A stretch of 64,000 nt of DNA from Clostridia bacterium (GCA_017502165.1 JAFVVO010000019.1:62001-126000); one strand, 5' to 3'. Shown: positions 30,929-60,568, numbered from the stretch's first letter. The notes: a model not told the origin generated them from the letters alone. Translations and numbers: made by a program.

Positions 30929-33900
30929 ATGAAGTCTTTGTTTAGCAAGATGCTCGTATTGGTTTTAGTGCTTGCAATGGCTGTATCGGTGTTCGCTATA
31001 GTTGCTCAGGCAACTCCCGCAGCCGATTCCGCTCAAAGCACACAGAATCAGACCGGCACTACGAATGAAGAAGGCGGAGCTGGGCTTACGGTAGAGGACC
31101 CGGAAGCTTTTTACAGCAAAATAGGTACTGAAGACGATTACGCCGCGTACCTTAAAGCTCACAGCGACGCTGCAAGACCTAACAAACAGATTTTATTAAA
31201 GGGAGAAAATGCCGTTCAGTTTAACGGTGAAACCGGTGAAATCATCGGCAAGCTTCCTATGATAAAGAGAGCATCACAGAATACACCCGCTGATCTTCGT
31301 GACGGCGCATTATTCTATGATGAAGGTATCTGCGGTTGGGTGGTTAACATCACCGAAGCAGGCTGGTACAACGTAACGTTGTCTTACCTTGCCTACGATG
31401 AGCTTACTTATACTGTTGACGGTGTTCAGTATACCGTTACCAGCAAGAGCTCTGACGTTCAGCGCAGATTCTATATCGACTATAAAATTCCTTTCTATGA
31501 AGCACGTCAGGTAAACTTTGAACGTGTTTGGAAGGATGCAAGCGTTTTGTTGGTTGACTCTCAGACCAATAACGAAAAGAGACCTTATCAGTCCGAAACT
31601 GAGCAGTGGCAAACTCTTTCTGTGCGCGACTATATGGGATATGAAAGCGAGCCCTTCAAGTTCTATCTTTCAGAAGGCACTCACACTATCGCATTCGGCG
31701 CAATCAAGGAAGGTATGCTTGTTGAATACGCAATGCTTCATCAGGTTGAGCAGGCTCCTACCTATGCTGAGTTAAAGGCTCAGTATGCTCAGGAGGGTAA
31801 AACCAAGGTTCAGGGCGTAAAGAATCTTTACGTTCAGGCTGAAGGCTTGCACAATCCCGAAACCTATCTTGGCGCACAGGCAGAGACCTTCCTTACTACT
31901 GACCTTGTAAACAAATACAACAATTACATCAATCCTCTTGATACTACAGCTTATGACGTAACAAAGGATCCTACCTTTGCAATACTTAAATCGTCACCCA
32001 CGCTTTACGGTATTACCGACAGATCCTCACCTGCAAGTGTGCCTTACAGCCACAGCAAGATCAGATATAATACCATCGGCGGTGACAAGTGGCAGAGCCC
32101 AAACCAGTGGATCGAGTGGTCGTTTGACGTTGAAAAAGCAGGCTTATACGCCATCAGCTTCAAGGCGCGTCAGAACATCCTTAACGGTATGCACACCACC
32201 CGTAAGCTTACCATTAACGGCGAAGTTCCTTGCCAGGAAGCATTGAATATTACCTTCCTCTACGGTAACTCCTTCAATATGTACACTCTTGGCGACGAGA
32301 ATGAAACCTTCTATTTCTACCTTGAAGAAGGAAAGAACTCCATTCGTCTTGAAACAACCCTTGGCGATTTGGGCGGAATGCTTGCAAAGGCAGAAGCAAG
32401 TCTTGCAAATCTTAATAAGGCTTACAGAAGAATCCTTATGATTACAAGTGCTTCTCCCGACCCCAACCGTAACTATCAGCTTAACGTAATGGTTCCCGAC
32501 GCTCTTCAGATCCTTAAGGATGAATATGTTGTTCTTTCAAACCTTGAAAAGGAATTTATTGAGGTGTTCGGCGCAGACGCAGGCGCTCAGCTCTCAACCA
32601 TTAAGTCAATGATGCTTCTGCTTGAGCAGATGAATGAGGACCATAACAAGATCGGTGAAATGTTCACGAGCCTTAAGGACTCCATTGCTTCAATGGGTAC
32701 ATGGCTTAACGATATGAGTGAAACTCCCTTGGAGCTTGACTATTTCGTTATTACCACCGAAGAAAATCTTGGCTACACCAGTGCAGATAATACTGTTGTT
32801 CCCGGTAAGGAAGAGCTTGTTTCACCGAAGTCAACCTTCTTTGCAAGCGTGCTTCACGAAATCCGTTCCTTCATCGCATCCTTCACCGAAGACTACGATA
32901 ACATCGGCGGAACAGTTGCTCAAGACGGTCAGCAGCCCGTTAAGGTTTGGCTTGAAACAGGCGCAGGTCTTACCGGCTCCCGTGATAACGCAACCATTCT
33001 TAAACAGCTTATCGACGATATGTTCACAAAGGATACGGGCATTATAGTAGAAACCCGTCTTGTTGCAGGCGGCTCACTTCTTCCCTCAGTCCTTTCAGGC
33101 ATCGGCCCCGAGATTTGCTTGTCCCGTAGCGCAGTTGACGCTGTTAACTATGCATTCCGCGGCGCAGTTATGAACCTTGCCAACGAAGAGCTGTTCCCCG
33201 ATTATAAAGACGTTCTTCTTAACGAAGAAAGATATGCTTACAGTGCTATCGAGCCCTTTAAGTTCGGCAAAGGCATTTACGCAGTTCCCGAAACTCAGGA
33301 CTTCTTTATGACCTTCTACCGTACCGACATTCTCGAGGAGCTTAACCTTACACCTCCTAAGACCTGGCAGGACGTATATAATATAATAGGTCATCTTCAG
33401 CATAAGCAAATGACCTTTGCTATGCCCGTTCCCGTAGTTGGCGCAGTAGGCTCAGGTAACCTTTCCTACGCTATGTTCCTTTATCAGAAGGGCGGCACCT
33501 ATTACAACGAAGATTACAGTGCAACAGCACTTACCACCGACGCAGCGCTTGACGCTTTCAAGGAATGGACCGGCTTCTATACTCAGCAGGACCTTCCCAA
33601 TACCTATGACTTTGCAAACCGTTTCAGAACCGGTGAAGTTCCCGTAGGTATCGCAAGCTACAGCCAGTATTCACAGCTTGCAGTTTTCGCACCTGAAATT
33701 CAGGGCTTGTGGGAGTTCTCATTAGTTCCCGGCACACCTCAGGTTGACGAAAACGGCGCACCCGTGCTTGACGAGAACGGTCAGCAGATTATTGACCGCT
33801 CCTGCGCAAGTAACACATCAGGCTGCGTAATGCTTTCAATCGACACCACCAATGAAGAGGGCGTAAAGAGAGCACAGCGTGCTTGGAAGTTTATGACCTG

Positions 33901-34252
33901 GTGGACAGGTGAAGAAGCTCAGTATCGCTTCGGTACTGAAATCGAAAGCTTGCTTGGCGCAGCAGCCCGTTATCAGACTGCAAACCTTAAGGCTATGAAG
34001 CGTCTTCCCTGGGATAAGGCTTCAATGGATATGATTCAGGAGCAGTGGTCACACACCAAAGGCATTCCTCAGGTACCCGGCGGCTACTACACCGCACGTA
34101 ACATTGAGTTTGCCTGGAAGGAAGTTATTAACAACGCTGCTGCAGAAGCAAACACCACCTTCGTTGAATACGTTGGTAAGATTGACGATGAAATCACACG
34201 TAAGCGTGAAGAATTCAAAGACAAGATTGCAGAAATGTTAGGAAAGGAGTAA
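30929..34252 (+). CDS. Giant extracellular solute-binding protein with carbohydrate-binding-like modules
   Basis: 1107 residues. A signal peptide (VLVLVLAMAVSVFAIVAQA) has no lipobox cysteine. Two beta-sandwich modules follow, near 90-275 (VVNITEAGWYNVTLSYLA) and 300-490 (WSFDVEKAGLYAISFKAR), resembling family 6/35 carbohydrate-binding domains. A helical linker leads to a family 1 solute-binding fold from about 670 to 1080, with FYRTDILEELNLTPPKTWQDV and WKFMTWWTGEEAQYRFG. Ordinary proteins of this class have about 430 residues and are lipoproteins. The permeases follow eight bases downstream. The natural ligand is probably an oligosaccharide; that is inference from family and context. Confidence 0.85.
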   Translation: MKSLFSKMLVLVLVLAMAVSVFAIVAQATPAADSAQSTQNQTGTTNEEGGAGLTVEDPEAFYSKIGTEDDYAAYLKAHSDAARPNKQILLKGENAVQFNGETGEIIGKLPMIKRASQNTPADLRDGALFYDEGICGWVVNITEAGWYNVTLSYLAYDELTYTVDGVQYTVTSKSSDVQRRFYIDYKIPFYEARQVNFERVWKDASVLLVDSQTNNEKRPYQSETEQWQTLSVRDYMGYESEPFKFYLSEGTHTIAFGAIKEGMLVEYAMLHQVEQAPTYAELKAQYAQEGKTKVQGVKNLYVQAEGLHNPETYLGAQAETFLTTDLVNKYNNYINPLDTTAYDVTKDPTFAILKSSPTLYGITDRSSPASVPYSHSKIRYNTIGGDKWQSPNQWIEWSFDVEKAGLYAISFKARQNILNGMHTTRKLTINGEVPCQEALNITFLYGNSFNMYTLGDENETFYFYLEEGKNSIRLETTLGDLGGMLAKAEASLANLNKAYRRILMITSASPDPNRNYQLNVMVPDALQILKDEYVVLSNLEKEFIEVFGADAGAQLSTIKSMMLLLEQMNEDHNKIGEMFTSLKDSIASMGTWLNDMSETPLELDYFVITTEENLGYTSADNTVVPGKEELVSPKSTFFASVLHEIRSFIASFTEDYDNIGGTVAQDGQQPVKVWLETGAGLTGSRDNATILKQLIDDMFTKDTGIIVETRLVAGGSLLPSVLSGIGPEICLSRSAVDAVNYAFRGAVMNLANEELFPDYKDVLLNEERYAYSAIEPFKFGKGIYAVPETQDFFMTFYRTDILEELNLTPPKTWQDVYNIIGHLQHKQMTFAMPVPVVGAVGSGNLSYAMFLYQKGGTYYNEDYSATALTTDAALDAFKEWTGFYTQQDLPNTYDFANRFRTGEVPVGIASYSQYSQLAVFAPEIQGLWEFSLVPGTPQVDENGAPVLDENGQQIIDRSCASNTSGCVMLSIDTTNEEGVKRAQRAWKFMTWWTGEEAQYRFGTEIESLLGAAARYQTANLKAMKRLPWDKASMDMIQEQWSHTKGIPQVPGGYYTARNIEFAWKEVINNAAAEANTTFVEYVGKIDDEITRKREEFKDKIAEMLGKE

Positions 34253-34259
34253 GAAAAGA

Positions 34260-35204
34260 ATGGCTGTCTCAAAAGAAGCAAAAGCTAAAAACAAAGCGTT
34301 CTTCTCTGACTGGTTAAAATATCAGTTCAAGGAAATGCGCAAAAACGGTGGCTTGTATCTTTTCATGCTCCCGTACCTGCTTATATTTGTAACCTTTACA
34401 GTTTTACCCGTTATCGTTGCAATTTACTTCAGCTTTACCTACTTTAACGTTCTTGAGCCTCCCCAGTGGACCGGTTTTGAGAACTATATCAGGCTGTTTA
34501 CTGCTGATGACTTGTTTATGACCGCATTTAAGAACACAATGTTCTTTGCAGTTATTATCGGTCCCGGCGGATATCTTCTTTCACTGTTCTTTGCATGGCT
34601 TATTAACGAACTCAGCAGAAGAGCCAGAGTTATTATGACTATCTTCTACTATGCTCCTTCTCTTGCCAGTGCATTGCCCATCTGGAAGATTATATTCTCC
34701 TCCGACCAATACGGCTTACTTAACGGCTTCTTGATGAATACCGGTATTACATACACCAACATCAAGTGGCTTGAAGACGTAAACTACATCGTGCCCTGCT
34801 GCTTATTCGTTATTTTGTGGGGCTCACTGGGAACCAGCTTCCTTACGTTCATTGCAGGTTTGCAGAACGTTGACAGAACTCTTTACGAGGCAGGCGCCAT
34901 CGACGGCGTTAAAAACCGTTGGCAAGAGCTTTGGTACATTACCTTACCTTATATGAAGCCTCAGCTTATGTTCGGTGCGGTTATGAGTATTACCGGCGCT
35001 TTCTCAGTAGGTGGTGCAATTACCAACCTGGTAGGTTATCCCTCTCAGGACTACGTAGCCCACACACTTATTCACCACATGGAAGACTATGCAAACCAAC
35101 GAATGGAATTAGGTTATGCTTGTGCCATTACGGTGCTCTTGTTCTTGTTACAGCTTGTAACTAACAAGATAATTAAAAGATTACTTTCGAAGGTGGGTGA
35201 GTAA
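34260..35204 (+). CDS. ABC sugar permease, MalF/LplB type (pair 1)
   Basis: Inner-membrane permease of 314 residues with six helices. The cytoplasmic EAA loop, EAGAIDGVKNRWQELWYITLP, docks the ATPase. It belongs to the binding-protein-dependent carbohydrate permeases and pairs with the next gene (three-base spacer). No ATPase gene is present in the operon, so a shared MsmK/MalK-type ATPase encoded elsewhere is expected. Confidence 0.9.
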   Translation: MAVSKEAKAKNKAFFSDWLKYQFKEMRKNGGLYLFMLPYLLIFVTFTVLPVIVAIYFSFTYFNVLEPPQWTGFENYIRLFTADDLFMTAFKNTMFFAVIIGPGGYLLSLFFAWLINELSRRARVIMTIFYYAPSLASALPIWKIIFSSDQYGLLNGFLMNTGITYTNIKWLEDVNYIVPCCLFVILWGSLGTSFLTFIAGLQNVDRTLYEAGAIDGVKNRWQELWYITLPYMKPQLMFGAVMSITGAFSVGGAITNLVGYPSQDYVAHTLIHHMEDYANQRMELGYACAITVLLFLLQLVTNKIIKRLLSKVGE

Positions 35205-35207
35205 GAT

Positions 35208-36053
35208 ATGGCAAAAAAACTTAGCCGCTCAGGAGCGGGTAACTTCCTCGGAATTGCTTTCCTGTGTGTAATAGCAGTTCTGATGGTTCTTCCTATGGTT
35301 TATGCCGTTGGTAACTCATTCAAGCCTATGGACGAATTATTCAAATTCCCTCCCACCATTCTTCCAAGAAGATGGGTTACAACAAACTATACTGACTTGT
35401 TTGTTTTAATGGGTAACTCTTGGGTACCTTTCTCAAGATACTTCTTTAACACCATATTTATTACGTCAGTCGGCACCTTCGGTCAGATCGTTTGCTGCTC
35501 ACTTTGCGCATATCCCTTGGCTATGTACAATTTCCCCGGCAGAAAAATGATTTCCGGCATGATTGTTACCGCACTTATGTTCAACGGTACAGTTCTTTGG
35601 CTTCCCTTGTTTATGATTAAGGCAGGCCTTGGTATGATTGATACCTACTGGGCAATTATAATTCCCACGTTTGGTTCGTCAATGGGTATGTACCTTATGC
35701 AACAGTTTATGTCGCAGATACCCAAATCACTTGTTGAGGCAGCTCGTATCGACGGTGCAGGAAGCTTCAAAATTTTCTGGACAATCGTTCTTCCTCAGGT
35801 TAAATCAGCTTGGCTTACGCTTATGATTTTCTCCGTTCAGGGCCTTTGGAACACCGGTGCTTCAGTATTTATTCAAAGTGAATCACTCAAAACACTGCCT
35901 TACGCTCTTTCACAGATCGTTTCAACCGGTATTGCACGTCAGGGTGTTGCTAACGCAATTTCGGTTATTATGATGGCAGTTCCCATTACAACATTTATTA
36001 TTTCACAGAGTAACATTATTGAAACAATGGCTACTTCCGGTATGAAGGATTAA
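35208..36053 (+). CDS. ABC sugar permease, MalG/UgpE type (pair 1)
   Basis: Second permease of the pair, 281 residues. An N-terminal helix is followed by the FKPMDELFKFPPTILP loop typical of MalG-type proteins, five further helices and the EAA loop EAARIDGAGSFKIFWTIVLPQ. The C-terminal segment is SQSNIIETMATSGMKD. It lies between its partner and the NHL protein, each with short spacers. Confidence 0.9.
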   Translation: MAKKLSRSGAGNFLGIAFLCVIAVLMVLPMVYAVGNSFKPMDELFKFPPTILPRRWVTTNYTDLFVLMGNSWVPFSRYFFNTIFITSVGTFGQIVCCSLCAYPLAMYNFPGRKMISGMIVTALMFNGTVLWLPLFMIKAGLGMIDTYWAIIIPTFGSSMGMYLMQQFMSQIPKSLVEAARIDGAGSFKIFWTIVLPQVKSAWLTLMIFSVQGLWNTGASVFIQSESLKTLPYALSQIVSTGIARQGVANAISVIMMAVPITTFIISQSNIIETMATSGMKD

Positions 36054-36067
36054 GGAGGGTACAGATA

Positions 36068-37951
36068 ATGAAATTAAAGAAAATTGCATTTCTGATGCTT
36101 TCCGCTATGCTTACGCTCGCTCTTTCAATAAGCGCGTTTGCAGCTCCGTATCAGAACTACACCATTACAGAATCGGGTGTTTATCCCGAGCCCCAGGCTT
36201 ACGTGCCTGACGCGGTTATTAACAGCGGCGTTATCGGCCTTGAAAATCTTGAAGGCGTTGCAATCAAAACACCTCAGGATATGACCTTGTTTAAGGCAAA
36301 CGGCTTCATCCTTATTTCAGATACGGGAAACAAGAGAGTTATCGTTCTTGATAAGGATATGCGTACTGTTAAACAGATTATTTCCACTTGGACAAAGGAC
36401 GGGGTGGAGGATACGTTCCTTAATCCCAACGGTCTCTTTATTCACGAGGAAAAACAGCTTCTCTTCGTTTGTGATACCGACAACAAGCGTATCGTAAGCT
36501 TTGCGTTTGATGCGGAAACCGAGCTTTTCTCCTTCGTAAGAACTTACGACGATCCCGATATTTCAAAGTATTTCTCCGAGGATTATCAGGAGGGCGACGT
36601 TGTTGTAACAGAAACTCCCGCACCTACCCCCGAAGCAACTCCCGACCAGGAGGCTGAAGGCGATGGGGCAGAGGGAGAAACCGACGGCGAAACCGATGGC
36701 GAAAATACTGACGGTGAAGCCACTGACGGCGAAAATGCCGATACTCCCGGTGATGACGAAATCGAAATTGACAACAGCTCCGGTTCATCATCTTCTTCAA
36801 GCGCACAGGTAACCTACAAACCCTTAAAGGTTGTAGTTGACGGCGCTATGCGTATGTTCGTAGTTTCCAAGGATTGCTATCAGGGCCTTGTTGAGCTTAA
36901 CGACAACGGTGAATTTACAAAGTTCTACGGTGCAACAAGAACAAAGCAGTCACTTTCCGCATTGCTTAACCGCTTGTTCTCTGCCGAAGCAAAGGCAAAG
37001 CGTCAGCAGAACCTTTCAACAGAATACAGCAACATCACCATGGATGATAACGGATTTATTTACGGTACCATCTCACAGCTTAAGCTTACTGACCTTACCG
37101 ATCATTTTACTTCAAAGGCTGAAATCGGTGCGGCATTGAGAAAGCTTAACGCTGCCGGCTCCGACGTTCTTAAGCGTACCGGCATCATTCCTCCCTCGGG
37201 AGATAAGGGTGACGAAAAGAACAGATCAACCTATTCTTATCTGTGCGACGTTACCGTTTCCAAAAACGGATTAACCAGCGTGCTTGACTCACAAAAGGGC
37301 AGAGTATTTACCTACACCAATACCGGTGAGCTGCTTTACGTTTTCGGCGCGTTAGGACAGAAAATCACTCAGGTAGGTGAGGATAAGGGCTCATCAAGAG
37401 AAGAGCAGATAGGTTACACAAAGGGTACCAACCTTACACCCACCGCAATTCAGCTGCTTAACGATGATGAAACAATCGTTATTCTTGACTCTCAGGGCGC
37501 ACAGCTTACCACCTATAAGCCCACCGAATACGGCTTAATTCTTCGCGAAGCAATTAACAGCCACGAGGAACGCCGTTATGACGATGCAGTTGCGGCTTGG
37601 AACAAGGTTTTAGGTATGTCTTCAAACTCTGCATTAGCTTACAGAGGCGTAGGTAAGATTTCATATCTTAACGCTTCCAAATATAATGTAGAAGATGAAA
37701 CGGTTGAGGATCTTCGTGAAGCACAGCGTACCGAAAAACAAAGACTGTATCTTGAAGCAGCCGATTACTTTATGAAAGGCTACTCTCAGGAGGAATACGG
37801 TAAAGCATTCTATAAATACAGAGACCTTGTTTTAGAAGGTATTATGCCTTACTTAATGTGGGCAATCATTATAGTGGCAGTAGGAACACTCCTGCTTGGC
37901 TGGTATAAGAAATTCAAGAGATTTGTTGAGACAGGAGGTAAAAATCAGTAA
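36068..37951 (+). CDS. Secreted NHL-repeat/TPR protein with C-terminal membrane anchor
   Basis: 627 residues: signal peptide ending SAFAAPYQ, then NHL-type beta-propeller blades (FILISDTGNKRVIVLD, LFVCDTDNKRIVSF). A low-complexity acidic, Thr/Ser-rich insert interrupts the propeller at about 178-245. More blades follow, then a TPR-like helical stretch (RRYDDAVAAWNKVLGMS) and one membrane helix near 598-618 with a basic tail. Members of this group sit beside YIP1, DUF5696 and sugar permease genes in other Firmicutes, as far as I recall. An external scaffold or glycan-contact role is inference. The stop overlaps the next ATG by one base. Confidence 0.75.
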   Translation: MKLKKIAFLMLSAMLTLALSISAFAAPYQNYTITESGVYPEPQAYVPDAVINSGVIGLENLEGVAIKTPQDMTLFKANGFILISDTGNKRVIVLDKDMRTVKQIISTWTKDGVEDTFLNPNGLFIHEEKQLLFVCDTDNKRIVSFAFDAETELFSFVRTYDDPDISKYFSEDYQEGDVVVTETPAPTPEATPDQEAEGDGAEGETDGETDGENTDGEATDGENADTPGDDEIEIDNSSGSSSSSSAQVTYKPLKVVVDGAMRMFVVSKDCYQGLVELNDNGEFTKFYGATRTKQSLSALLNRLFSAEAKAKRQQNLSTEYSNITMDDNGFIYGTISQLKLTDLTDHFTSKAEIGAALRKLNAAGSDVLKRTGIIPPSGDKGDEKNRSTYSYLCDVTVSKNGLTSVLDSQKGRVFTYTNTGELLYVFGALGQKITQVGEDKGSSREEQIGYTKGTNLTPTAIQLLNDDETIVILDSQGAQLTTYKPTEYGLILREAINSHEERRYDDAVAAWNKVLGMSSNSALAYRGVGKISYLNASKYNVEDETVEDLREAQRTEKQRLYLEAADYFMKGYSQEEYGKAFYKYRDLVLEGIMPYLMWAIIIVAVGTLLLGWYKKFKRFVETGGKNQ

Positions 37952-38592
37952 TGGAAAAGCTTAAAAACTTTGGCACAGACCTTAAATATGCTTTCCACGT
38001 GATAACCCATCCTCTCGACGGTTTCTGGGATTTGAAGCATGAAAAACGCGGCAGATCGTATATCGCACTTATTTTCCTGGTGTTATACGTAATTACCGAC
38101 ATTTTGAACAAACAGTTCAACAATTACACCTTTAATGAATTAAAGGTTGCACCGCAGGATATTGATTTAATCGGAACCTTCTTCTCAGTGGCATTGATCG
38201 TAGGCATTTGGGTTGCTGCCAACTGGGGTCTCACAACCTTGTTTGACGGCGAAGGAAGTATGAAAGACATTTTCATTTACACCGGCTATTCAATGTTACC
38301 TTTGGTGCTTTCACAGATAATACTTATTCCCTTAACAAACGTTCTTACTGTAAATGAAGCAACTATCGTTTCGCTCATTACCGTTTTAGGTATTGGTTGG
38401 ACGGCAATATTGCTCTATACGGGAACAATGACCACCCACCAGTATTCAGGCGGTAAAACCTTTATCATTCTTTTAGCGGTTTTACTTGGTATGGTTATTA
38501 TCGTTTTCGTAGGCGTGTTGTTCTTCTTCCTCGTGCAGGAAATCTGGAACTTCGGCTTCACTATATACAGAGAATTAGAACTCAGAAGGTAA
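37951..38592 (+). CDS. YIP1 family membrane protein
   Basis: 213 residues with a cytoplasmic N-terminus (YAFHVITHPLDGFWDLKHEKRG, the usual YIP1-family opening in these loci) and five membrane helices. Function is unknown; eukaryotic Yip1 works in membrane traffic, but that says little here. It is translationally coupled to the NHL protein gene (TAATG), which suggests the two form a complex. Confidence 0.8.
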   Translation: MEKLKNFGTDLKYAFHVITHPLDGFWDLKHEKRGRSYIALIFLVLYVITDILNKQFNNYTFNELKVAPQDIDLIGTFFSVALIVGIWVAANWGLTTLFDGEGSMKDIFIYTGYSMLPLVLSQIILIPLTNVLTVNEATIVSLITVLGIGWTAILLYTGTMTTHQYSGGKTFIILLAVLLGMVIIVFVGVLFFFLVQEIWNFGFTIYRELELRR

Positions 38593-38603
38593 CGGAGGTA
38601 GAG

Positions 38604-41315
38604 ATGAAAATGAATAAAAAGATTATTTCTGCCTTACTTATCGCATTACTCATTCTTCCTACACTCCTGTTTACAGGCTGTACGGTTGAAGAGTCGGAAG
38701 GCTATCTTACGCCTGAAAATAAGGAACCCTTATACGAATTTGCTAATGATGCAAAAACCTTTGTTCGTGAGGATTCCGATGGCGACACAACGTTTACCTT
38801 AGTTGAAGAGAATGAAAAATACGAATTCTACTTCAGCGCTGACATTCTTGAAATTGCCTTAAAGAGCAAAACAACGGGTGAAATTTGGTATTCCAACCCT
38901 GCGCCCTCTGCAAGAAACGAAGGCATCAAGAGTGAAATGAGCAGCCAGGTTGCGCTGTTCTACCTTAATAAAAAGGACGGCAGTCAGAATACCCTTGAGA
39001 GCTATCTTGACTGTGTTCTTAACTACGATGAGGAAACCGGCATCAACCAGTTTTACGTAGTTAACCATAACGGAAATCTCCGTGTTGTTTACATCTTAGG
39101 TCAGATCAAGCCCGATTATATTGTTCCTACCTGCTTAGAGGGCTCCATTGCCGAAGAGTATATTGAAAAGCTTAAGGCAAGCTCAAACAATGACCATCGC
39201 AGTCAGGCAAGACTTATCAGCGGCGGTAGTATGTACGCAAAGGTTACCCCTGCAGTTTGGGATACCTACACCGTTGATATCCAGAATGAATACCTTGCCA
39301 TTGTACCTAATATGGGCACAATGATTAAGGAAGGCAAAACCGTTTACATCATCAAGGATCAGACTAAGCTTTATAATACCGAGCGTATGAAGAAGCTTCA
39401 GGCAGCTTTCGTAGAAGAGCTTGGAATGACTCTTGAAAAGCGTGACGAAATGAACGCAGAGTTCGGCGTAGTTATCGAGCCTGCCAAGACCTTCTGGATT
39501 CCCGTTGATTACGACTTAACCGAAACCGGACTTAAGGTTACTATTCCTAATGAAGAAATTCATTACGATACTAACGCTTTTGCCATTGCTTCCATCGACC
39601 TTCTGCAGTACTTCGGTTCTGCATCAAAGCAGGAAGAGGGTTATATGTTCGTTCCTGACGGCTCAGGCGCAATCGTTAACTTCAACAACGGCAAAACAAA
39701 CATTACCAGAGAAATCCGTGTTCAGCTTTACGGCCTTGACGACGGACGTGAATATACCACCAAGCCCTTCTCCAATGAGGGTGCGTATCTTCCCGTATTT
39801 GGTATTAAAAAGGCAAACAGTGCGTTGTTTGGCATTATCGAAAGCGGTGATACCAATGCAACGGTTATTGCCGATATCGCAGGCAAAAACGTTTCAGCAG
39901 TTGACCGCAACAGATGCTACACCAGCTTCAGAATGTCAGAATATGAGGAACTGCAGTTTAAGAGCGCAGGCAAAACCTCAAGAATTTATCAGTATAAGAT
40001 GAACTCAGCTGATATTACCGTTAGCTATTCAATTTTAGATAACGAAAAAGCTGATTACAACGGTATGGCGGAATTCTACCGCAATTATCTTGTGGATAAG
40101 GGAGCATTAAAGCAGAAGGATTACACAAACGTTCCCTTCAACATCGAGCTTATCGGTGCTTATGACCACAAGACCGCTTTCCTTGGCGTAGGCTATACGG
40201 AAATGCGCGCAATTACCACCTTCCAGCAGTGCAAGGAGCTTATTAAGAAGCTCAGCGACAACGGCATTAAAAACGTATCCATCAACTACAGAGGTTGGGC
40301 AAACGACGGCTTAAGAAACAGCGTATTCAATAAGGTTAAGGTTGTTAAGAGCCTTGGCGGAGAAGAAGCGCTTAAGGATATGTTGGCTTATGCTGAAGGC
40401 TTAGGCGTTAAGGTTTACCTTGAAACCGAGCTTGCTTTGGTATTTAAGGAAAAGTCATTCAGCGGCTACAACACCTTTACTCAGGCATCACGTCTCGTTA
40501 CCCGTGACGTTGCACATCATTATCAGTACGTAAACGACTGGAACACTCAGTCAAAAACTAACGTGGCAACAATTGTTTCACCTTCCGTTATTTACAATAT
40601 TGATAGTGAAGACAATACAAAGAGCTTTGCTTCCAAGCTTCTTGAGGATATGAACAAGATTGATATCAAGTCAGTAAGCCTTGGCAGTATGGGAACTAAC
40701 CTTCCCGGTAACTATAACATTAAAGATTTCTATGATAGAGAAAAGACCGCTAAAACCTATGCAGCAGTTGCTCAGAAGTATAGCGAGACAATGAACGTAA
40801 TGAGCAAGGGCACCAACAAGTATATGCTTCCTTACGTTGACTCCATCTTTGAAATCAGTAACACAAGCAGTAACTTTAACCTTGCTGATCAGTCAGTACC
40901 CTTCTATCAGATGGTAATTCACGGATATATCGAATATTCCGGTGAACCTATTAACCTTAACGGTGACACTCGCAGAACCTTCCTTCAGGCAGTTGAAGCA
41001 GGTGCAGGCTTGTATTACCGCTGGTGCTACGTAACAAACGACGCAGTTCAGGAGCTTTGGTTTGACGGTATGTACTCATTAAGCTATGAGTCCTGGTTCG
41101 ATGAGGCAGTTGAATTATACAAGGAGTATAACGATATGCTTGCTTCAACCGCAGGTGCTCAGATGATCAGACATGAGGCTGTTGCTGAAAACGTTAACAA
41201 AATTACTTACAGCAACGGCGTTGAAGTTTACGTAAACTATAATGACTATGCTTATACTGCTGCAGACGGCACAGTTGTTGAGGCAGAATCTTTTGCAAAA
41301 GGAGGTAATAACTGA
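38604..41315 (+). CDS. DUF5696 lipoprotein, glycosidase-like
   Basis: 903 residues. The lipobox LLFTGC gives a lipid-anchored external protein. Residues about 60-500 are beta-rich and look like the N-terminal sandwich domains of glycoside hydrolases. Residues about 505-880 read as a TIM barrel: FNIELIGAYD, GIKNVSINYRGWANDG, GVKVYLETELALV, SVSLGSMGTNL, YMLPYVDSIFEIS. Several Asp and Glu at strand ends could be catalytic (for instance in the VYLETE and YVDSIFE segments), but I cannot name them. This assignment is by pattern, not by alignment. GGAGG precedes the first ATG. The stop overlaps the next gene by one base. Confidence 0.78.
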   Translation: MKMNKKIISALLIALLILPTLLFTGCTVEESEGYLTPENKEPLYEFANDAKTFVREDSDGDTTFTLVEENEKYEFYFSADILEIALKSKTTGEIWYSNPAPSARNEGIKSEMSSQVALFYLNKKDGSQNTLESYLDCVLNYDEETGINQFYVVNHNGNLRVVYILGQIKPDYIVPTCLEGSIAEEYIEKLKASSNNDHRSQARLISGGSMYAKVTPAVWDTYTVDIQNEYLAIVPNMGTMIKEGKTVYIIKDQTKLYNTERMKKLQAAFVEELGMTLEKRDEMNAEFGVVIEPAKTFWIPVDYDLTETGLKVTIPNEEIHYDTNAFAIASIDLLQYFGSASKQEEGYMFVPDGSGAIVNFNNGKTNITREIRVQLYGLDDGREYTTKPFSNEGAYLPVFGIKKANSALFGIIESGDTNATVIADIAGKNVSAVDRNRCYTSFRMSEYEELQFKSAGKTSRIYQYKMNSADITVSYSILDNEKADYNGMAEFYRNYLVDKGALKQKDYTNVPFNIELIGAYDHKTAFLGVGYTEMRAITTFQQCKELIKKLSDNGIKNVSINYRGWANDGLRNSVFNKVKVVKSLGGEEALKDMLAYAEGLGVKVYLETELALVFKEKSFSGYNTFTQASRLVTRDVAHHYQYVNDWNTQSKTNVATIVSPSVIYNIDSEDNTKSFASKLLEDMNKIDIKSVSLGSMGTNLPGNYNIKDFYDREKTAKTYAAVAQKYSETMNVMSKGTNKYMLPYVDSIFEISNTSSNFNLADQSVPFYQMVIHGYIEYSGEPINLNGDTRRTFLQAVEAGAGLYYRWCYVTNDAVQELWFDGMYSLSYESWFDEAVELYKEYNDMLASTAGAQMIRHEAVAENVNKITYSNGVEVYVNYNDYAYTAADGTVVEAESFAKGGNN

Positions 41316-42229
41316 TGAAAAAACCAAGGTCTTATAAATTAGGCTTAATGACAAGACGTTCTTTGTCAGGCTGGCTCTTCGTATTACCCTTCCTTATCGG
41401 TTTGATATTCTTCGTATTATCACCCCTTTATACTGCATTGGTTCTTTCCTTTAACTCACAGTCCTTTAACGACGTTACGGGAATTACAAGCCTTGTACCG
41501 TTGGGACGTCACGGCTTTGAAGCATATTTTAATGCACTTCAGTCACAGGGCGATTTCATTACTCATCTGTTAGAATCTCTTTCAGAAATGATAATTATGG
41601 TTCCCACGACGCTTATCTTCAGCTTCCTTATGGCTAACGTTCTTAACCAGAACTTCTTTGGAAGAACCTTCTTCCGTGCAGTATTGTTCATGCCTGTTAT
41701 TACTTCAGCAGGTGTTGCGGCTTCAATGCTTGCCGGTGAAACCGGTGTTGACTCCGGACAGATGTCTTCAGTTGGCTCTCAGGCTATGAACTTAGCGGGA
41801 AGTATTCAGGATTCCATCGGCGGCACCTTTGGTAACTTTATCGGAACTGCTTTTGATAAGCTTACGGTAATTATTAACGGTGCAGGTGTTCCGACACTTA
41901 TTTTCCTTGCTGGCTTACAGACCATTTCACCCTCAATCTTTGAATCTTCAAAGGTTGAAGGTGCAACCGGTTGGGAAAACTTCTGGAAGATTACTTTCCC
42001 CATGATTAGTCCTATGATTCTCGTTAATACGGTATATATCTTAATTGATAACCTTTGCGGAATGACCAATCCTATGCTTGCATATTTGTTTGACCAGCAA
42101 GGAAAGGGAGCTACCGGTGTAGCGCAGTATGACCTTATGGCTATGAGCTGGATGTATTTCTTGGTTACTGCAGTTATTATCGGCGCAGTTTCAGCGGTTA
42201 TTTCGAAACTCGTTTATTATGAGAACTAA
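41315..42229 (+). CDS. ABC sugar permease, MalF type (pair 2), with an internal insert
   Basis: 304 residues, six helices. The EAA-type loop ESSKVEGATGWENFWKITFP is present with Ser and Glu at usually Ala/Asp positions. Between helices 3 and 4 there is an extra stretch of about 45 residues (GETGVDSGQMSSVGSQAMN and onward) not seen in pair 1. It would face outwards. It overlaps DUF5696 by one base and precedes its MalG-type partner by 13 bases. Confidence 0.87.
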   Translation: MKKPRSYKLGLMTRRSLSGWLFVLPFLIGLIFFVLSPLYTALVLSFNSQSFNDVTGITSLVPLGRHGFEAYFNALQSQGDFITHLLESLSEMIIMVPTTLIFSFLMANVLNQNFFGRTFFRAVLFMPVITSAGVAASMLAGETGVDSGQMSSVGSQAMNLAGSIQDSIGGTFGNFIGTAFDKLTVIINGAGVPTLIFLAGLQTISPSIFESSKVEGATGWENFWKITFPMISPMILVNTVYILIDNLCGMTNPMLAYLFDQQGKGATGVAQYDLMAMSWMYFLVTAVIIGAVSAVISKLVYYEN

Positions 42230-42242
42230 GGGGGTGTAGAGA

Positions 42243-43280
42243 ATGGAAAAGACAGAAAACGTAAAACGCACTAACGAAGTTGGCGCTGAAGAGGTTGATA
42301 ACTTCGTGATACCTACACTCACTACTTGGCAGAAAATAAAGAGATTTATTTTAGGCAAAAGAGTGCTTGGCTTCGGCTGGGGCATTATTCGTACGATACT
42401 TTTATTAGGTATTGCTTACCTTATCATTTATCCCTTGCTTATTACCTTAATAACGTCATTTATGTCTTCTGCAGACGTTTATGACCCCACGGTAATTCTT
42501 ATCCCCACTTCAATTAACATAAATACGTATGTTGCTATGTGGAGATATGCTGAAATTCCTACACTTTATCTTAATTCCTTTGTTTCGTCCATTAGCTTGG
42601 CAGTGCTTCAGATGTGCTCCTGTATGTTGGTTGCTTATGGATTAGCAAGATTTAAGTTTAAGGGAAATAACTTTATTTTCCTTATGTGTATCTTTACACT
42701 TATGGTACCCATTCAGATGCTTACCACCTCAATGTATTTCAGATATAAGACCTTTAACCCCTTATATATGTTCTCATTCGGTGAGCAGCTTTCAATGGTT
42801 CCCAATATCGACCTTACTCGCGGTTGGACGGCTATCGGATTGCTTTCAGCAACTGCAACGATGTACAGAAACGGCTTGTTCGTGTTCTTGCTTCGTCAGT
42901 ATTTCGTTAACCAGCCTAAAGAGCTTGAGGAGGCTGCATATATCGACGGCGCAGGTCCTTTCAGAACCTTCGTTCAGGTTATGCTTCCCAGTGCAACGCC
43001 TATGCTTGTAACTGTTTTCCTGTTCGCTCTCGTTTGGCAGTACAATGATATTTACTATATCACAATGCTGAATCCCACTGCAGAGGTTATGGCAACACGA
43101 ATTTCAAGTATGGGTTCAAGCTTCGTAAGTTCAGTTCTTCACATTTCAGGTGACCAAGTTCTGAACTCCTTGTATCAATCGGCTTGTACGGTTATGCACG
43201 TAGCGCCCATCGTAGTTATTTATTGCTTTGGCCAGAAATTCTTCGTTCAAAGTATTGAACGCTCAGGTATGGTTGGCTAA
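42243..43280 (+). CDS. ABC sugar permease, MalG type (pair 2)
   Basis: 345 residues with a hydrophilic N-terminal extension of about 50 residues before the first helix. The EAA loop is EEAAYIDGAGPFRTFVQVMLPS. Last gene of the operon; a strong terminator follows. As a second permease pair in one operon with one visible binding protein, it may use the same binding protein, a second one elsewhere, or the DUF5696 lipoprotein. Confidence 0.88.
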   Translation: MEKTENVKRTNEVGAEEVDNFVIPTLTTWQKIKRFILGKRVLGFGWGIIRTILLLGIAYLIIYPLLITLITSFMSSADVYDPTVILIPTSININTYVAMWRYAEIPTLYLNSFVSSISLAVLQMCSCMLVAYGLARFKFKGNNFIFLMCIFTLMVPIQMLTTSMYFRYKTFNPLYMFSFGEQLSMVPNIDLTRGWTAIGLLSATATMYRNGLFVFLLRQYFVNQPKELEEAAYIDGAGPFRTFVQVMLPSATPMLVTVFLFALVWQYNDIYYITMLNPTAEVMATRISSMGSSFVSSVLHISGDQVLNSLYQSACTVMHVAPIVVIYCFGQKFFVQSIERSGMVG

Positions 43281-43289
43281 TAAAAAAAT

Positions 43290-43325
43290 AAGGCATATTG
43301 CTAATGCAGTATGCCTTTTTTTGTT
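43290..43325. terminator. Terminator between the glycan-uptake operon and gin
   Basis: Stem AAGGCATATTGC (43290-43301) with GCAGTATGCCTT (43306-43317), loop TAAT, then TTTTTTGTT. An A-run on the left side makes it usable from the minus strand too. Confidence 0.85.
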
Positions 43326-43590: not shown

Positions 43591-44295
43591 TTATTCGGAT
43601 TCTGACATTACCTTATATGCAAGGCGGGCGGCATTCTCATCGGGCAGGCAACGAAGCCTGTAAAAAGGAACCGTTGCAATTAACTTATCCAATAGCGTAA
43701 GCAAGGCACCGGTTTTATCAGAGCCTGCTCTGCGAAGGGTTTGGGAAAGGATTAACTGCAAAATTTCTATTGGAGACGTAATTCGCTCAATAGAATTTTC
43801 CTTTGCGCGCTCAATAAAGCAAATAGCCTTAAGGGGAACCTTGTGGTCTACGTTAAGATCCGTTTTACCGCTCCAGGGAGTACCGTAGGCGTAAAACTTA
43901 CCGTTCTCAAGGCGAAGGGCAGGCTTATCGTCATTAAGGATAACAGCACCCTCAAAAGCTTTCAACCAAAGACTCGTGTGGGTGGATTTTCCCGTGCCCG
44001 AGTCAGCTGAAAACAAGTAAGCGTTACCGTTATACTCTACGGCTGAAGCGTGCAAAACCAAACTGTTTCTCAAAAGAAGCTGTGAAGCAAAATCCTTGCC
44101 TAAGGTTACGTAAACAAGGCTTTCCCAATTACCATCGGGGTGAGAAGCAAGAAATTTGTCGATGCGTTCCTGAGGGAAGCTTAAGGTAAAATCAGGAGAA
44201 TCAGACGGGGAAGCTAAATACTTCTCCGCCTTCTTAAGCAGCTTTCCTCTGCAAAGCATATTTACCGTAAAATCGGCAATTTTATACGTTTTCAT
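43591..44295 (-). CDS. HPr-kinase-like (lasso-kinase-type) P-loop protein
   Basis: 234 residues of the HPrK/PEPCK-like fold found beside PqqD genes in peptide-modification loci. LVLHASAVEYNGNAYLFSA at 79-97 leads into the P-loop SGTGKST at 99-105; NDDKPAL at 121-127 provides the acidic Mg site; YGTPWSGK follows at 137-144. True HPr kinases carry an extra N-terminal domain, which is absent. Characterised relatives in paeninodin-type lasso pathways phosphorylate the C-terminal serine of a precursor peptide. Its ATG overlaps the rfbA stop by one base. A kinase for a small molecule or sugar remains possible. Confidence 0.72.
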   Translation of the reverse strand: MKTYKIADFTVNMLCRGKLLKKAEKYLASPSDSPDFTLSFPQERIDKFLASHPDGNWESLVYVTLGKDFASQLLLRNSLVLHASAVEYNGNAYLFSADSGTGKSTHTSLWLKAFEGAVILNDDKPALRLENGKFYAYGTPWSGKTDLNVDHKVPLKAICFIERAKENSIERITSPIEILQLILSQTLRRAGSDKTGALLTLLDKLIATVPFYRLRCLPDENAARLAYKVMSESE

Positions 44296-60435: not shown

Positions 60436-60440
60436 AACTA

Positions 60441-60555
60441 AGCAAAGTAGAAGCCGCCCGCTTCTCACCTGTCAGCAAATGCGCTGCACACGGTTACTTA
60501 ATGGCATTTTTGTTATTGTATGCGGGTAGCTTGTGCTATCCGCATTATTTATTTT
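60441..60555 (+). promoter_or_regulatory. infC-rpmI-rplT attenuator leader (L20-leader-like)
   Basis: The leader holds a 5' hairpin AGAAGC/GCTTCT (60449-60465) with CCGCCCGC in its loop, and a terminator-like hairpin ATGCGGGTAGC (60520-60530) with GCTATCCGCAT (60535-60545) followed by TATTTATTTT. CCCGC (60457-60461) can pair with GCGGG (60522-60526), which would open the terminator. Autogenous control by L20 on infC-rpmI-rplT leaders is established in Firmicutes; that this leader works the same way is inference. Confidence 0.7.
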
Positions 60556-60568
60556 GGAGGTGTTCAAC

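Follow-up and report, generated by a model that had tools for sequence, protein, structure and literature searches.

We analyzed a 64,000-nt stretch of DNA from a Clostridia bacterium (GCA_017502165.1 JAFVVO010000019.1:62001-126000; hereafter, the window), in which an operon of eight genes at positions 30929–43280 of the plus strand encodes a giant solute-binding protein (SBP), the permeases permA and permB, an NHL-TPR protein, a YIP1 protein, a DUF5696 protein and the permeases permC and permD, in that order (Table 1). All eight open reading frames (ORFs) lie where the first-pass annotation had placed them, with Pfam assigning the same names, and each is preceded by a Shine-Dalgarno-like sequence. 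The successive intergenic gaps are 7, 3, 14, −1, 11, −1 and 13 bases, the negative values corresponding to one-base overlaps at 37951 (NHL/YIP1) and 41315 (DUF5696/permC), where three such overlaps had originally been counted. This tight spacing, which had been read as a sign of a stoichiometric complex, shows co-expression only. As had been stated, the eight ORFs include no ATPase or regulator; nor, besides the DUF5696 gene with its glycosidase fold, is there any further glycosidase among them.

A consensus scan finds a terminator-like stem 3′ of permD, and promoter-like sites at a frequency not above that in shuffled sequence. An Rfam search gave no match inside the operon; a ribosomal protein L20 leader (RF00558) is located elsewhere in the window, at 60439–60557 on the plus strand. 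On either side, the nearest genes lie on the opposite strand, with two ABC-exporter-like genes upstream, and an uncharacterized gene and RmlA downstream. The uncharacterized gene (43591–44295, minus strand) encodes a 234-aa product with weak HprK-related/ScmC similarity, and overlaps RmlA by one base. The neighbors of the operon in the window are housekeeping genes and the RmlA gene, with no CAZyme or regulator adjoining.

Table 1. Positions in the window of the operon genes and of the domains, residues and signals discussed in the text.
Feature	Position	Strand	Basis or remark
Giant SBP, 1107 aa	30929..34252	+	Pfam SBP_bac_8, E 8e-15; AF2 pLDDT 84.2; Foldseek
SBP β-sandwich module 1, aa 88–303	31190..31837	+	Weakly GH115_C/CBM35-like
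SBP β-sandwich module 2, aa 350–477	31976..32359	+	CBM35/CBM6-like; profile matches to CBM-bearing structures
permA, ABC importer permease	34260..35204	+	BPD_transp_1; EAA loop YEAGAIDG...ITLP
permB, ABC importer permease	35208..36053	+	BPD_transp_1; EAA loop VEAARIDG...IVLP
NHL-repeat/TPR protein	36068..37951	+	Pfam NHL; PDB profile matches to NHL propellers and TPR proteins
YIP1 membrane protein	37951..38592	+	Pfam Yip1, E 1.9e-20
DUF5696 protein, GH129 fold	38604..41315	+	Pfam, E 2.7e-177; AF2; Foldseek; hhalign
DUF5696 residues 694–695 (Gly-Ser), nucleophile-site region, end of barrel strand 4	40683..40688	+	Residue alignment
DUF5696 Asn703, possible counterpart of DagB Asp486	40710..40712	+	Acid there in 75/92 relatives
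DUF5696 Asn738, GH129 acid/base site, end of barrel strand 5	40815..40817	+	Asn in 88/92
permC, ABC importer permease	41315..42229	+	BPD_transp_1 barely above cut-off; slightly degenerate EAA loop FESSKVEG
permD, ABC importer permease	42243..43280	+	BPD_transp_1; EAA loop EEAAYIDG
Terminator-like 12-pair stem and T run, 3′ of permD	43290..43317	+	Consensus scan only

Conservation of the Gene Cluster across Bacillota

Among the genomes available, DUF5696 passes the family cut-off in all five from the taxonomic family, in 20 of 151 from the order and in 26 of 299 from the phylum. Querying species genomes with an alignment brought up at least 551 relatives, 80 of which were retained for analysis. 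The retained relatives come mostly from Paenibacillus, and also from Cohnella, Caldicoprobacter, Mahella, Gracilibacillus, Lachnospiraceae and rumen/hindgut Clostridia. Single-protein scans of viral and genome contig collections with the window DUF5696 returned zero relatives, whereas the alignment query succeeded; from an alignment comprising 29 divergent members, no patterns could be reliably read.

According to the gene maps, the order SBP, permA, permB, NHL, YIP1, DUF5696, permC, permD recurs in most of approximately 118 Bacillota loci, and is exact in 50 of these under automatic ORF calling, with many of the non-exact loci showing an NHL-YIP1 fusion, contig ends, or ORFs that were probably missed by the crude caller. 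Its recurrence throughout the phylum makes this arrangement more than chance, and the eight-gene cluster is a conserved module. Pairwise distances between seven of the module genes across 52 loci correlate at 0.84–0.97; these are raw distances with no control gene, to which the species tree contributes, and they derive from a strict choice of genes, as the picking of second copies probably lowers the values for the SBP and permA. In four pairs of modules that each share a single genome, the divergence is likewise broadly in step. Divergence is slowest for permA and permB and fastest for DUF5696 (mean distance 0.61), a pattern that exposure of this protein to a variable ligand would be expected to produce.

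Solute Binding, Permeases, and the Missing ATPase

The AF2 model of the giant SBP comprises an N-terminal hydrophobic segment, two β-sandwich modules, a helical segment and an SBP domain, and the structures nearest to the last of these by Foldseek are SBPs that bind β-1,2-glucooligosaccharides (sophoro-), cello- and maltooligosaccharides. The profile of module 2 matches CBM-bearing structures in the PDB with a best E of 1.2e-6, and CITase with an E of 3.2e-5. In Pfam searches, GH115_C and DUF5077 remain below cut-off for the window SBP, and weak matches to CBM_35, CBM_6 or Golvesin_C occur in a few relatives. Judged on these profile and model comparisons, the earlier wording of "carbohydrate-binding-like modules" appears fair, applying to module 2 and, more weakly, to module 1.

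The operon thus presents sugar-type permeases and an SBP with no ATPase gene of their own, and all four permeases carry EAA-type coupling loops. An OB_MalK search of the window genome gave two ATPases, one of which (contig 42) is a solitary UgpC/MsmX-type gene among unrelated genes (NF008653 score 477.8 bits, cut-off 432; MsmX, 6yir, as the second-best match in the PDB), and the other of which (contig 1) lies next to permeases and an SBP of its own. Contig 12 carries a PotA-type ATPase, likewise with its own system. Since the other ATPases have systems of their own, the contig 42 ATPase is, by elimination, the most likely to drive the window permeases, and the ATPase lacking from the operon is probably this orphan MsmX-type gene. 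In two relatives from the order (L077 and L078), a 377-aa MsmX-type ATPase that is 62% identical to the orphan is found near the module.

The powering of several importers by MsmX is established in Bacillus subtilis,(PMC5730181) where the MsmX-dependent importers AraNPQ, GanSPQ and YtcQP-YteP share with our operon the absence of an ATPase gene, the EAA loops, and an orphan MsmX-type ATPase encoded elsewhere.(PMC5730181) As a transporter, the operon is therefore a variant of these importers, with uptake predicted from sequence to depend on MsmX; it differs from them in adding a second permease pair, an SBP of 1107 aa with extra modules, and the NHL, YIP1 and DUF5696 proteins.

NHL-TPR and YIP1 as a Probable Membrane Unit

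The NHL-TPR protein has a signal sequence and one C-terminal transmembrane helix (a hydrophobic helix at residues 592–610), and YIP1 has five predicted hydrophobic helices. In 33 loci, the two are fused as a single ORF with DUF5696 directly after, which is strong evidence that NHL and YIP1 act together. Of the joint complex at one membrane site that had been proposed for the products of the operon, the sequence evidence points to physical association for the NHL-YIP1 pair only.

These data bear on the alternative of two ABC sugar importers of the ordinary kind in one operon, whose accessory proteins would have a purely regulatory role, with no joint complex beyond each transporter. In 88 loci, the module comes with a second SBP of approximately 470 aa, which in most relatives lies ahead of the giant SBP or behind permD, and which is absent at the window locus and in its family. 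Two SBPs with two permease pairs are what separate importers would have, and co-expression, which is all that the spacing shows, is in line with such an arrangement. However, NHL, YIP1 and DUF5696 sit between the two permease pairs in nearly all loci, and both the NHL-YIP1 fusion and the co-divergence suggest coupling, such that we consider independent importers to be rather unlikely.

DUF5696 Has a GH129 Fold with Altered Catalytic Positions

The window DUF5696 protein is a probable lipoprotein that matches PF18952 at 591 bits (cut-off 25.6), with residues 281–897 aligned to profile positions 5–612 of 612. Using its AF2 model (pLDDT 89.4, pTM 0.87) as a Foldseek query, GH129 structures were the best matches (5opq, E 1.6e-31; 5wzn, E 6.8e-23), followed by GH101. 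A PDB search with the single window protein gave no match, and one with the DUF5696 family profile found GH129 structures. Comparison by hhalign with eight GH129-like proteins of the same order, gathered by protein search as Pfam PF11308 matched nothing (controls included), gave a probability of 100% over residues 324–886. The first-pass reading of this protein as a TIM-barrel glycosidase is thus supported at the level of the fold, the likeness to GH129 (NagBb, 5wzn; GH129-like DagB/ZGAL_3152, 5opq) extending over an N-terminal β-sandwich, the TIM barrel and a C-terminal β domain. Membership of GH13, GH31 or GH36 was also considered and rejected, as Foldseek places GH129 and GH101 above GH31 and GH36; a gene of the same genome with a weak match to a glycosidase family, examined in this context, has GlgX as its best model. 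We note that a same-genus genome (G001) encodes a GH129-like protein outside the module (L007:1093–2790) with intact YIDV and SSE motifs, for which a search of the window genome gave no match.

The nucleophile Asp is kept in all eight GH129-like proteins of the order, as is the SSE/QSE glutamate wherever it is readable (one is masked). We take the SSE glutamate to be the second catalytic residue of NagBb, in line with the present alignment. In DagB, Asp486 is the counterpart of the nucleophile Asp (NagBb Asp435), and this GH129-like enzyme is active without the second catalytic residue of NagBb, needing Glu517, Glu531 and Asp202 instead;(PMC5698469) loss of the SSE glutamate alone therefore does not prove inactivity.

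In the window DUF5696, residues 688–707 contain no Asp or Glu, in an alignment to GH129 that is uncertain by about one residue. Of 92 relatives, 60 have an acid at 694/695. There is none in the window genus, where strand 4 reads SLGS(M/L)G, as opposed to SLRDLG (Asp at 695) in most Paenibacillus. At the second site, an acid is found at 736–738 in only 5/92, the GH129 SSE motif being usually replaced by GGN, and by KGTN in the window protein. Conserved acids occur elsewhere, at position 607 (76/92), D762 and E798, and the conserved Trp565, Asn738, Tyr740 and Asn784 suggest that a ligand pocket has been kept.

With these acids jointly absent, the window protein is unlikely to hydrolyze a glycan in the manner of GH129. 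The proposal that the operon would also trim its glycan is consequently doubtful, since this protein has no acid at either GH129 catalytic position and nearly the whole family is without the acid/base one. DUF5696 appears homologous to GH129, but on the sites compared it is not to be classed as a GH129 enzyme, from which it also differs in being membrane-anchored and encoded within an ABC importer operon. It may nevertheless act by another mechanism via the acid at 607, D762 or E798, and in a second alternative it would be an active exo-glycosidase with shifted catalytic residues, the module then binding, trimming and importing its substrate. The GH129 fold, the acids and pocket residues conserved elsewhere, the Asp at 695 in most Paenibacillus and the precedent of DagB would all fit such an enzyme; with DagB active without the NagBb-type glutamate, and with most relatives keeping an acid near the nucleophile site, a loss of activity is only probable. 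Such an enzyme is hard to reconcile with a window protein and genus that lack an acid at 694/695, 703 and 736–738 alike, and with the retention of both residues by the GH129-like proteins of the same order, and we regard it as unlikely.

Glycan Genes Beside the Module and the Class of Substrate

Beside the module in relatives are genes for GH26, GH10, GH43, GH3, GH42, GH35, GH38, GH2 and GH95 enzymes (as raw co-occurrence, with no background rate), as well as GDSL esterases, lectin-domain proteins, CBM proteins, and LacI or AraC regulators. None of these CAZyme, regulator or second-SBP neighbors is found at the window locus. The window genome has a GH3 gene and no GH43 that we could find, from which we infer that the organism may scavenge oligosaccharides freed by others. 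In family relatives, the gene directly 3′ of permD encodes a protein of 664–674 aa (L103:15253–17247, also L064 and L065) that is absent from this position in the window; the 664-aa protein gave no Pfam, NCBIfam or PDB match.

Taken with the SBP fold, the CBM35/CBM6-like module, the EAA loops and the orphan ATPase, the CAZymes of the relatives lend support, from sequence and models, to the glycan binding and import that had been proposed. A host glycan as substrate is not indicated, the neighbors in relatives pointing mainly to plant polysaccharides. Conversely, the housekeeping genes and RmlA around the operon, the lack of a regulator within it and of GH43 in the genome would be compatible with a module handling a cell-envelope polymer or turnover products, and not an external nutrient glycan. 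We consider this improbable, given the enzymes for plant polysaccharides and the LacI regulators that adjoin the module in relatives, and a patchy distribution (20/151 order genomes above cut-off) of the kind that a nutrient system would show.

A Model for Glycan Capture and Import

Taking these alternatives into account, our preferred reading, to which we assign a probability of roughly 55%, is that of a membrane-anchored module for glycan capture and import, with a shared MsmX-type ATPase, an NHL-YIP1 scaffold and a GH129-fold receptor. Using its SBP domain together with the CBM-like modules, the giant SBP would grip an oligo- or polysaccharide and hand it over to permA/permB, permC/permD would form a second import channel, and one MsmX-type ATPase encoded elsewhere would energize both pairs. 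DUF5696, having probably lost hydrolysis in the window lineage, would serve as a glycan receptor, holding the glycan outside the membrane together with the SBP. The connection to YIP1 and the permeases would be made by the NHL propeller and TPR, with NHL-TPR and YIP1 constituting a single scaffold unit. Against this capture-and-import reading stand the absence of a CAZyme or regulator beside the window operon, and the supply of permC/permD, which is left without a second SBP in the window lineage.

The Sus-type systems of Bacteroidota gather a glycan at a single point of import by means of several surface proteins. Only tentatively, and with the odds against it, might the module be viewed as a Gram-positive counterpart of this concept that forms a single membrane complex, with an NHL-TPR/YIP1 scaffold holding the giant SBP, a nonhydrolytic GH129-fold receptor and two permease pairs that share MsmX. 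The likeness is one of concept only, as the operon is ABC-driven, has no SusC/SusD homologue among its eight genes, and is not a member of the Sus systems.

In the literature searched, outside of which most subscription papers fall, we found no paper on DUF5696 or on the eight-gene combination, and the description of the operon as undescribed is thus provisional. Within that literature, this is a widespread and strictly ordered Bacillota module without a described function, and one that is directly testable in culturable Paenibacillus. If its products form a single complex, this would explain how long or branched glycans are docked at the importer in some Gram-positive cells, and would provide roles for bacterial YIP1, for NHL-TPR and for DUF5696, the last as a glycosidase fold turned receptor.
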